A stretch of 64,000 bases of DNA from assembly GCF_024464595.1 (NCBI RefSeq), contig NZ_JANHAW010000001.1:744001-808000 (forward strand). The letters are read 5' to 3'. The notes beneath the pieces were generated by a model, which saw nothing but the letters and a program-made list of their open reading frames with translations, made no database searches and was not told the origin of the DNA. Below, in pieces: positions 46,977-49,939 of this stretch. The position numbers and the translations under genes are program-made. Origin of the DNA: Halobellus litoreus. Lineage in GTDB: Archaea > Halobacteriota > Halobacteria > Halobacteriales > Haloferacaceae. Position 1 is the first letter of the stretch, and every line of letters starts with the position of its first letter.

Positions 46977-47657
46977 TCACCCGACGACGGACGCGACGAG
47001 GTCGTCGAGGTATGCGATCTCCTCTTCGAAGATGCCGTGGCCGCGGCCCTCGTAGCGGTCGAAGCGGACGTCGGCGTTCAGGCGCTCGAAGACCGCGACG
47101 GTCTCCTCGGCGCGCGACATCGGGATGTGGGGGTCGTCGTCGCTGACGCCCAGGAAGAAGGGCATTCTCTCGACGTCGCCCGTGTGGTCGAACTCGGTCC
47201 CCTCCTCGCCGATCAGGCCGCCCGAGAGGAGGACGAGGCCGCCGTAGCGTTTCGGCTCGCGCGCGACGAACTCCGAGACGAGACACGCCCCCTGCGAGAA
47301 GCCGACGAGGACGACCCTCTCGGTCGGGAGCCCCCCGGACTGGGCTTCCTCGACCGCTCGCCGGAGGTGAGCCAGCGCCGAATCGAGGTGCGGCTGGTTC
47401 CGCTCGATCGGCGCGAGGAAGCGGTTGGGATACCAGGTCCCTCGCTGGGCCTGCGGGGCGACGTAGTGCAGCCCCTCCCGGCCGAACTCCCGGGCGAACT
47501 GGAGCATCCCGTCGGCCCGCGCGCCCCGCCCGTGCACGAGGACGACCGCGGCGTCGGCGTCTTCGGGCGATGCGCCGGCGGTTCGGATCGGCTGCTCGGC
47601 GTGCGGGCCCGCGTCGATGTTCGGATCCTCGTCGCCGTTCGGGGTGCGTCGGTTCAT
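46977..47657 (-). CDS. Phospholipase/carboxylesterase-type alpha/beta hydrolase
   Basis: A 226-residue hydrolase. The catalytic triad is visible: Ser121 in VLVGFSQGACL, Asp174 in VSDDDPHIPM and His207 in GRGHGIF, with an oxyanion loop at VHGRGARADGM. It resembles bacterial MhqD-type and PF02230 esterases. Its ATG overlaps the stop of the dioxygenase gene (ATGA region at 47654-47657), so the two are translationally coupled. In bacteria this pair is induced by quinones and catechols, which supports a detoxification role. Confidence 0.88.
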   Translation of the reverse strand: MNRRTPNGDEDPNIDAGPHAEQPIRTAGASPEDADAAVVLVHGRGARADGMLQFAREFGREGLHYVAPQAQRGTWYPNRFLAPIERNQPHLDSALAHLRRAVEEAQSGGLPTERVVLVGFSQGACLVSEFVAREPKRYGGLVLLSGGLIGEEGTEFDHTGDVERMPFFLGVSDDDPHIPMSRAEETVAVFERLNADVRFDRYEGRGHGIFEEEIAYLDDLVASVVG

Positions 47658-48685
47658 TCGCTCGCCCCTCCGTCCGCCGGGGCCTTTTCGCTTTCCGCTG
47701 GGGCCGTCGCCTTCGTCTCTCCGGAGGGGAAGCCGTCGTCGGGAACGTCCAGCGGCGGCAACGCCGACTCGATCTCCTCGCGCTCGTCCGCCAGCCACGG
47801 GGGGAGTTTGAGTTCCGAGCCCAACGCTTCGACGGGCTCGTCGAGCGTGAAGCCGGGTCCGTCGGTCGCGATCTCGAAGAGGATGCCGCCGGGTTCGCGG
47901 AAGTAGATCGACCGGAAGTACTGGCGGTCCTTCTGCGGCGTCACGAACTGTCCGGCGTCGGAAAGCCGCTCGCGCCAGGCCAGTTGCTCGTCCTCGTCGG
48001 CGGCGCGGAACGCGACGTGGTGGACGGTCCCGACGCCGGGGCGGCCACGCGGCGGTCCGCGATGGAGCACGTCGACGACCGTCGCGCGATCGCCCGCCGC
48101 GGCGTAGCGGACGCGCTCGGCTCCGTCGTCGGGGTCGGTCTCGGCTCCGACGCGTTCGAAGCCGAGCAGGTCCAAGACGTTCGCCGTGGCGTCGGGTTCG
48201 GCGGAGTGCAGCGTGACACCGAAGAACCCTCGGATCGCGTGCTCGTCGGGGACGGGACCGCCGTTCCACGGCTCGATCGGCGAGTCCGAGAGATCCGTCT
48301 CGACGAGTTCGAGCGGTTGTCCGTCGAGGTCCGCAAGGGGGAGAACGTCCGCGCCGAAGCGCGTGCGGCGCTCGTCGACGGACGCGTCGGCGTCGCCGAG
48401 TCGGTCCGCCCAGTAGTCGAGGCTGCCCTCGGGAACGGCGAAGGCCGTGGCGACTGCCTGTCCGCGGCCGGGACGGCCCGGTCGCGCACCCTCGAAGGGG
48501 AAGAAGGTGAGCGCCGTGCCGGGAGCGCCCGTCTCGTCGCCGTAGTAGAGGTGATAGGTCGTCCTGTCGTCGAAATTGACCGTCCGCTTGACCAGCCGCA
48601 GTCCGAGGACCGCCGTGTAGAACCGGAGGTTCTCCTGCGGATCGCCCGCGACGGCCGTGACGTGGTGGATACCGTTCGTTTGCAT
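47654..48685 (-). CDS. Ring-cleaving dioxygenase-like protein (VOC family, MhqO-type)
   Basis: A 343-residue protein of two glyoxalase/dioxygenase modules, residues about 4-135 and 150-285. The metal site is predicted from His8 (GIHHVTAV), His222/223 (VGTVHHVAF) and Glu271 (GILFEIATD). The pattern and length match MhqO-type proteins, which cleave hydroquinone or related aromatics. The last 45 residues are a disordered acidic tail. It heads a two-gene unit and is divergent from the HxlR regulator. Confidence 0.88.
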   Translation of the reverse strand: MQTNGIHHVTAVAGDPQENLRFYTAVLGLRLVKRTVNFDDRTTYHLYYGDETGAPGTALTFFPFEGARPGRPGRGQAVATAFAVPEGSLDYWADRLGDADASVDERRTRFGADVLPLADLDGQPLELVETDLSDSPIEPWNGGPVPDEHAIRGFFGVTLHSAEPDATANVLDLLGFERVGAETDPDDGAERVRYAAAGDRATVVDVLHRGPPRGRPGVGTVHHVAFRAADEDEQLAWRERLSDAGQFVTPQKDRQYFRSIYFREPGGILFEIATDGPGFTLDEPVEALGSELKLPPWLADEREEIESALPPLDVPDDGFPSGETKATAPAESEKAPADGGASE

Positions 48686-48822
48686 AGTCTGGGTCTCCTC
48701 GCGGGTCCCGGAGGGAGTCGCGGGAAGCGGATCGTCCGCGTCCCCGTCCCAATCCGGTATCGCTCTGTTACCTACTAAAGAAGCGAAACCATTTGTATCT
48801 TCGCGGACGAAGGGGTGACCAG
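48686..48822. promoter_or_regulatory. Divergent promoter region between the dioxygenase and HxlR regulator genes
   Basis: Two A+T islands sit near the centre: CTACTAAAGAAG (about 48772-48783), giving a minus-strand TTTAGTAG box for the dioxygenase gene, and CATTTGTATC (about 48790-48799), about 25 bases before GTG 48823 for the regulator. They are so close that one bound regulator dimer could control both. I see no perfect palindrome. Confidence 0.5.
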
Positions 48823-49260
48823 GTGACGCCTGTGTCCCCAGACTCCCAGGACAAATACGACGAGGACGCGTGCTCGGTGATCGACTCGCTCGAACAGATC
48901 GGCTCGCAGTGGCGACTCATCGTCCTGCACGACCTCCAGGAGGGCGAGAAACGCTTCAACGAGCTCAAGCGCTCGACGGACGCCAGTTCTCGGACGCTCT
49001 CTCGCGTCCTCGACGACCTCCAGGAGCTGGGGTTCGTCAACCGGCGGCTGGAGGAGGACGCGCCGGTGGCGACGTACTACTCGCTGACGCCGAAGGGTCG
49101 GTCGCTGTGTCCGGTGTTCGACGAGATCGAGGCGTGGGCCGACGAGTGGCTGCACGCGACGCCGACCGGCGAGGATCCCGCGACCGTGGCGGCCGACGGC
49201 GGTTCGACCGACGAGGGGGCCGCGGACGGCGAGGCGACGGAATCCGAAGCGGCCGAGTGA
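48823..49260 (+). CDS. HxlR-family (DUF24) winged-helix regulator with two cysteines
   Basis: A 145-residue regulator (GTG start; GTG 48832 is an alternative). The winged helix covers residues about 14-110: CSVIDSLEQIGSQWRLIVLH, FNELKRSTDASSRTLSRVLD, VATYYSLTPKGRSL. Cys17, at the position of the redox-active cysteine of YodB/HypR-type DUF24 sensors, and Cys96 could form a disulfide or bind quinones. The acidic tail is disordered. Being divergent to the dioxygenase-esterase pair, it probably represses them until electrophiles appear. Confidence 0.88.
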   Translation: MTPVSPDSQDKYDEDACSVIDSLEQIGSQWRLIVLHDLQEGEKRFNELKRSTDASSRTLSRVLDDLQELGFVNRRLEEDAPVATYYSLTPKGRSLCPVFDEIEAWADEWLHATPTGEDPATVAADGGSTDEGAADGEATESEAAE

Positions 49261-49279
49261 TTCGGCCGATCCGGCCGCT

Positions 49280-49939
49280 TCAGGCGCCTTCGACGAGTCG
49301 TTTGAGTTGTTCCGGCGGCACGGCTCCGCGGGCGGCGTGGCCCTCGTAGGCGAACGTCGGAACGCCGGTGATACCCTGCTGTTGAGCCTCGCGGAACTGC
49401 GCTTCGAGGGCCGAGCGGCGTTCCTCGTCGTCGAGCACCTCGCGGACGAAGTCGGCGTCGACGCCGACCGCAGTCGCGATGTCGACGAGGACGTCCGCCG
49501 AGCCGATGTCGCGTCCGTCGTGCCACAGCGCCTCGAAGACGCGCTCGTCGAAGTCGAGCCACGTCTCGTAGTCGGACTGGTCCCGGACCGCGACGGAGAC
49601 GAGCTGTGCGGGCAGCGAGTCGACGTCGGTCGCCAACTCGACCTCCATCTGGTCGGCCCCGTACTTCTCGCGGAGCTTTCGGACGTTGGTTTTGGCCTGT
49701 TCGTAGTAGGCGTCGTCCTTGCCGTCGTCGGCGTCGTGGTCGATCGTTCCGTCGGGGTTCCGCTTGCCCGAGCGAAGGTCGAAGGGCCGCCAGTCTATCT
49801 CCAGTCGCTCCTCGCGTTCGGACTGGTACTCCGACAGCGACCGTCGCCCGAGGTAGCAGAACGGGCAGACGTAGTCCGAGTAGACGGTGATTCGGTCGTC
49901 TGTCGTCGCCGTTTCGGATCCGGTGGTGGCGTCTGACAT
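49280..49939 (-). CDS. DsbA/FrnE-like oxidoreductase
   Basis: A 219-residue thioredoxin-fold protein. The active-site CPFC (Cys25-Cys28) is in DYVCPFCYLGRR, with a cis-proline in GVPTFAYEG near residue 195. FrnE proteins are cytosolic DsbA relatives linked to polyketide biosynthesis and oxidative stress. There is no signal peptide, so it acts inside the cell. It is convergent with the HxlR gene (20 bases apart) and fits a thiol/electrophile stress cluster. ATG 49939 is chosen over the frame to 50029. Confidence 0.87.
   Translation of the reverse strand: MSDATTGSETATTDDRITVYSDYVCPFCYLGRRSLSEYQSEREERLEIDWRPFDLRSGKRNPDGTIDHDADDGKDDAYYEQAKTNVRKLREKYGADQMEVELATDVDSLPAQLVSVAVRDQSDYETWLDFDERVFEALWHDGRDIGSADVLVDIATAVGVDADFVREVLDDEERRSALEAQFREAQQQGITGVPTFAYEGHAARGAVPPEQLKRLVEGA

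Follow-up and report, generated by a model that had tools for sequence, protein, structure and literature searches.

The window analysed here is the whole stretch of 64,000 nucleotides from Halobellus litoreus (contig NZ_JANHAW010000001.1, positions 744,001 to 808,000). Its positions 46,977 to 49,939 carry a gene encoding a winged-helix regulator of the HxlR/DUF24 family, which is located divergently to a gene pair encoding a ring-cleaving dioxygenase and an esterase. An earlier note on this DNA had interpreted the locus as a quinone-responsive redox switch. The finding reported here is larger than that, as it comprises a regulator present nearly throughout the class Halobacteria, its rotating gene partners and a predicted operator shared between them. 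The locus is composed of the following features (E, expectation value):

46977..47657, minus strand: esterase of the Abhydrolase_2 family ("MhqD-like"), second gene of the pair, 226 amino acids (Pfam Abhydrolase_2, E 1.5e-21)
47654..48685, minus strand: MhqO-type two-domain VOC ring-cleaving dioxygenase, 343 amino acids (MhqO structure 3oaj, E 3.6e-85)
48756..48772, no strand: predicted operator GGTATCGCTCTGTTACC, found de novo as a palindromic motif (18.3 bits), conserved in Halobellus and cross-validated across partner classes
48774..48790, no strand: possible second, weak site ACTAAAGAAGCGAAACC (9.9 bits), 18 base pairs (bp) further on; tentative
48791..48797, no strand: AT-rich ATTTGTA / TACAAAT, putative TATA-like element of the dioxygenase promoter judging by its spacing to the operator, perhaps bidirectional
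48823..49260, plus strand: HxlR/DUF24 winged-helix regulator with a GTG start (PF01638, 77.4 bits against a cut-off of 20.8)
49280..49939, minus strand: FrnE-like DsbA oxidoreductase with a CPFC motif (PF01323, E 3.7e-34), a neighbour that is probably not part of the unit

Re-reading of the sequence placed all four genes where the earlier note had them, with the start codon of the esterase overlapping the stop codon of the dioxygenase (ATGA), the regulator gene divergent from the pair and Cys17 and Cys96 as the only cysteines of the regulator. The assignment of the dioxygenase was borne out as well. Its best match among solved structures was MhqO of Bacillus subtilis (3oaj, residues 2-315), it also resembles the 2,6-dichloro-p-hydroquinone 1,2-dioxygenase 4huz (E 1.8e-46), and it retains the motifs HH (7), HH (222) and a FEI(A) glutamate motif within 269-275, which we take to provide the ligands of the 2-His-1-Glu metal site of VOC enzymes. 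The "MhqD-type" label of the esterase holds at the superfamily level only: its closest solved chain was 4h0c (E 3.3e-48), and it scored 22.2 bits against the cut-off of 325 of the NCBIfam MhqD equivalog NF047577.

The order of dioxygenase, esterase and regulator genes recurs in Halobellus loci with protein identities of 76-96%. In two congeners (L253 in genome G048, L254 in G030) only a fragment or diverged remnant of the MhqO gene is left, whereas the operator and the genes for regulator, esterase and FrnE are retained. The genome of H. litoreus also contains a second overlapping MhqO-esterase pair (G000:C3:404570-405502, L164), the MhqO of which is 51% identical.

As a core gene, the regulator extends across the class Halobacteria: 109 of 116 genomes contain a match with an E of at most 1e-18, usually one strong copy. 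Across 113 compared columns its sequence is identical to the counterpart in Halobellus rarus. The loci named in the following are those of the 80 most similar of 440 relatives. Cysteine at position 17 is invariant among them (80/80), as is threonine at position 52 (80/80), and position 19 is occupied by valine (65), isoleucine (14) or leucine (1). Cys96, which the earlier note had named together with Cys17, is not a conserved feature, as it is a cysteine in 63/80 loci. In the alignment Cys17 matches Cys14 of HypR and the cysteine of HxlR. The predicted model of the regulator, with a predicted local distance difference test score of about 90 in the core, resembled the solved folds of HxlR (Z-score 14.9), HypR (14.1), YodB (13.4) and QsrR (13.2), and the sequence matched YodB (5hs7) with an E of 4.4e-14. 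The gene encodes an HxlR/DUF24 regulator with the cysteine of the family, linked to quinone-type detoxification genes, as had been claimed before.

The divergent partner of the regulator changes from locus to locus. Because our own heuristic for detecting small genes overlooked genes, the esterase of the window included, partners were counted by profile searches of all open reading frames. The immediate divergent gene encodes DoxX in 33 named loci, MhqO in 19, the esterase in 10, a single-domain VOC protein in four and a flavin reductase in one. Together these five families account for 67/80 loci, and at least one of them lies within 2.6 kilobases (kb) in 69/80. The partners therefore rotate within one functional theme, namely quinone and catechol detoxification. 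On a tree of the regulator, which is weakly resolved with few columns and many weak forks, the partner label requires at least 19 changes, where five would suffice for six labels; the link between regulator and partner seems to have been rebuilt repeatedly. In 11/80 loci (L077, L082, L088, L089, L093-L095, L100, L110, L114, L121) a gene encoding a beta-keto acid cleavage enzyme (BKACE, PF05853) was detected downstream of the regulator.

An alignment of Halobellus promoters revealed a near-invariant palindromic block in the region between the regulator and dioxygenase genes. Expectation-maximisation on 53 upstream regions, to which 81 had been thinned before motif finding, returned the 17-bp motif GGTWWCRYnRYGWWACC with a score of 309 versus 60-65 in shuffled sequences. 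The site GGTATCGCTCTGTTACC is the top-scoring one of the entire 64-kb window and lies within the interval 48,686-48,822 in which the earlier note had expected the regulator to bind. In 66/80 named loci a site of at least 14 bits precedes the regulator, and 8 of the 13 loci without an adjacent partner have the site as well; the rest of the same loci held 7 such sites in 917 kb, some of which are the true site displaced by the coordinates used. The operator is symmetric at its fixed positions, one half favouring TT and the opposite half AA.

The motif was transferable between partner classes. When trained on DoxX-linked promoters only, it exceeded the 1% null in 12/12 MhqO-linked, 6/8 esterase-linked and 12/16 other promoters, and training on MhqO-linked promoters recovered 17/20 DoxX-linked, 7/8 esterase-linked and 12/16 other promoters at the same level. 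In the window, TACAAAT on the minus strand begins 25 bp before the operator, as do the TATA-like boxes of unlinked DoxX promoters, and positions 48791-48797 may therefore serve the dioxygenase promoter as a TATA-like element. In Halorientalis (L126, L132, L142), tandem sites follow each other at a distance of 18 bp, the same step as that of the weak second site of the window. The regions upstream of the regulator in L126, L132, L142 and L102 contain three or four operator-like tandem sites, mostly at 18-bp steps, which suggests cooperative or multimeric binding in Halorientalis.

The operator also occurs in trans. Scanning 116 genomes for the exact pattern yielded 17 sites versus none for the reversed control; ten are located at the regulator, two before unlinked DoxX genes, three before NmrA-like genes and two elsewhere. 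The DoxX matches tested comprised 30 with loci (14 of them unlinked), 38 picked by their coordinates as unlinked and the one of the window genome; matches of low identity (about 38-44%) are for the most part absent from this set, as are the other regulator-linked ones. Among the 14 unlinked genes with loci four have a site, two of which had already been found by the pattern. The 38 further genes, a few of which sit near HxlR paralogs, have a site of at least 14 bits in 16 cases, compared to 20 of 20000 control windows (0.1%) and 2 of 682 upstream regions of other genes. Using the motif derived from MhqO-linked promoters only, 25/38 passed the 1% threshold and 13/38 the 0.1% threshold, and 24 of these 25 sites are located 77-131 bp before the gene. 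Unlinked DoxX promoters have a TATA-like box that begins approximately 25 bp ahead of the operator, which places the expected transcription start inside the site. The operator thus probably acts in trans. The clearest in-genome candidate for such a target is the unlinked DoxX gene of H. litoreus itself (G000:C2:26499-26897, minus strand), which is preceded by a 16.2-bit site (L252:1433-1449) about 35 bp upstream of the start of the match.

The presence of the genes across genomes agrees with this picture. All seven genomes lacking the regulator also lack this DoxX, which is absent from 18/116 genomes overall (Fisher's exact test, 6.8e-7), and MhqO is present in 2/7 genomes without but in 82/109 with the regulator (p 0.017), although the genomes are related and two of the seven belong to the same genus.

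Further candidate targets were considered. Five of 18 NmrA-like genes, or five of nine at 70% identity or more, have an operator. These genes (L234, L235, L237, L239, L242) encode NmrA-like NAD(P)-binding proteins, and the site is found 82-97 bp upstream. Since three of the five had originally been found by the pattern itself, we did not accept them as established targets and regard them as a lead to a possible further member of the regulon. An operator-like site of 17.4 bits (G000:C3:446551, L159:1552) lies between genes encoding an ABC substrate-binding protein and an amidohydrolase; it was rejected as a second target because the congener loci L197-L203 did not show it. A pattern search of the H. 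litoreus genome allowing up to two mismatches was too loose to be of use (50 places versus 25 in the reversed control) and missed the site at DoxX, which differs at three positions. About 100 bp upstream of the gene of another HxlR paralog of this genome (L001), the motif is found again with a score of 14.0 bits (L001:1361-1377), and the operator may possibly be shared between the regulator and this paralog, i.e. be subject to cross-talk.

The FrnE-like protein, which the earlier note had counted among the cluster, adjoins the regulator as described. It matched FrnE (5cnw, E 5.1e-15) and contains cysteines 25 and 28 in its CxxC motif. Its membership in the unit is not supported: the gene is convergent with the regulator gene, FrnE lies within 2.6 kb of the regulator in only 8/80 named loci, and the operator was not found in its own upstream region, where the best score was 3.2 bits.

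Taken together, the gene at 48823-49260 appears to be the copy, in Halobellus, of a DUF24 repressor common to the haloarchaea as a class. A dimer of it would bind the 17-bp operator about 25 bp downstream of the TATA-like box, over the expected start site, and would thereby block the polymerase. Its targets would be the mhqO-like/esterase pair at the locus and, in trans in the same genome, the DoxX membrane protein. The repressor would come off once the invariant Cys17, where helix 1 begins, has been modified by a quinone or a related electrophile, whereupon the dioxygenase may open the ring of the (hydro)quinone or of its thiol adduct, the esterase may handle the product of the dioxygenase and DoxX may act at the redox side of the membrane. 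The operator, the regulon and the repressor geometry are well supported computationally. Binding of the operator, repression and the sensing of electrophiles via Cys17 are presumed by analogy to the family as described in the excerpted texts of PMC8063818 and PMC7835342; the latter, as far as it is excerpted, presents the N-terminal cysteine of DUF24 proteins as conserved and other members as sensors of electrophiles or oxidants. We consider this account, a DUF24 repressor seated on the start sites of detoxification genes and released by modification of Cys17, to be fairly probable.

Several observations weigh against it. The named loci share descent, so that the counts do not represent independent events, and 13 of the 80, mostly in Haloferax and Natronomonas, have none of the listed partners directly divergent. 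Two HxlR paralogs of the window genome also carry Cys17, and for this reason Cys17 alone is weak and non-discriminating evidence of redox sensing. A dyad covariation test that was meant to strengthen the assignment of the operator turned out negative, with no covariation between its two arms (shuffle p 0.998). Furthermore, 22 of the 38 unlinked DoxX genes lack a site of at least 14 bits, only 1 of 19 unlinked MhqO copies has a site, and the second MhqO-esterase pair of the window genome was discarded as a target since no operator was found there. These absences suggest that the regulon varies between lineages.

The same repressor and regulon could also be governed by a reversibly bound aromatic ligand derived from aromatic catabolism, accommodated in a pocket similar to that of MarR or MhqR, with Cys17 playing a structural role. 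The relationship of the dioxygenase to the catabolic 2,6-dichloro-p-hydroquinone 1,2-dioxygenase, the missing conservation of Cys96 and the apparent ability of MhqR to sense without a thiol switch, as given in the excerpted text of PMC6798810, are in line with such a scenario. So is the site near the amidohydrolase, in a cluster with CoA-ligase and ABC-transporter genes that by eye is of the aromatic-catabolism type, but no such site was seen next to the five congeneric orthologs of 87-96% identity. Considering also that Cys17 is invariant in 80/80 loci and that the partners belong to detoxification classes and not to whole catabolic pathways, a ligand-responsive repressor seems unlikely.

Quite unlikely, in our view, is the ownership of the operator by a different haloarchaeal regulator with control over the DUF24 gene as well as the DoxX/MhqO genes. 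The 14.0-bit site upstream of paralog L001 indicates that related proteins may share sites; nevertheless, the site stays with the promoter of the regulator in loci that lack an adjacent partner, too (8/13), and absence of the regulator coincides with absence of DoxX (7/7). VOC and esterase folds occur in aldehyde detoxification, too, and the closest structural match of the regulator is a complex of HxlR with formaldehyde and DNA (Z-score 14.9), so that an HxlR-type sensor of formaldehyde or another aldehyde, crosslinked via Cys17, might be envisaged. Such a sensor is very improbable, given that the lysine pairing with the cysteine of HxlR (Cys11/Lys13 in the excerpts of PMC7835342) is replaced by valine, isoleucine or leucine in 80/80 loci, and that formaldehyde makes HxlR activate according to the same excerpts, whereas the operator here covers the predicted start site.

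The preferred reading, a repressor released by modification of Cys17, is closest to CatR and YodB of B. subtilis and QsrR of Staphylococcus aureus, with which the haloarchaeal protein shares the DUF24 fold, an N-terminal cysteine in the same region, the linkage to VOC dioxygenases and DoxX and an operator in the target promoters, predicted in the present case. It differs in the archaeal nature of the promoters and in partners that include MhqO and an esterase other than MhqD. YodB is of the 2-Cys type (Cys6-Cys101'), whereas no conserved cysteine corresponds here to its C-terminal partner Cys101. HypR (YybR) of B. subtilis is similar with regard to Cys14, yet the position of its second redox cysteine, Cys49, is taken by Thr52, and a disulfide of the HypR type therefore cannot form. 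HxlR of B. subtilis, which gave the family its name, is the closest structural match; it differs by the formaldehyde-pairing Lys13, absent here, and by being an activator in the excerpted text of PMC7835342.

The MhqR regulon of B. subtilis comprises the operons mhqNOP and mhqED. It resembles the present one by the MhqO homologue, but the regulator here is of the DUF24 and not of the MhqR type, and the esterase is not an MhqD equivalog. The earlier note had seen the same combination as in Bacillus. In the sections of PMC6798810 concerned, mhqE/mhqD-type genes are assigned to the MarR-type MhqR, DUF24 proteins (YodB, CatR, QsrR) control other detoxification genes, and ring-cleavage dioxygenases are under the joint control of YodB, CatR and MhqR; the wiring here thus represents a re-combination. 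DoxX proteins fit into this comparison, as MhqP and CatD of B. subtilis belong to the DoxX family (PMC7189620, in part) and catDE is repressed by CatR/YodB (PMC6212828, in part). The archaeal transcription factors OxsR, MsvR and SurR likewise have a key cysteine (excerpts of PMC9426492), but belong to the TrmB and ArsR families.

DUF24 quinone repressors are already known in Firmicutes. According to a 2022 paper on OxsR, an archaeal counterpart of YodB/CatR/QsrR is missing, and the open-licence literature searched yielded no work on quinone genes controlled by an HxlR/DUF24 protein in haloarchaea. The existence of a class-wide haloarchaeal thiol-switch regulon for quinones or electrophiles, in which a one-cysteine DUF24 core repressor with an operator of its own over the transcription start controls varying sets of genes for DoxX, the MhqO-type dioxygenase, the esterase, a flavin reductase and NmrA-like proteins, appears slightly favoured. 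If true, archaea would have their own equivalent of YodB/CatR/QsrR, in a rewired form with MhqO under the control of a DUF24 protein. A candidate regulator of this kind occurs in 109 of the 116 sampled Halobacteria genomes, and since its cysteine, its predicted 17-bp operator and its putative target genes can all be named, the proposal is directly testable.

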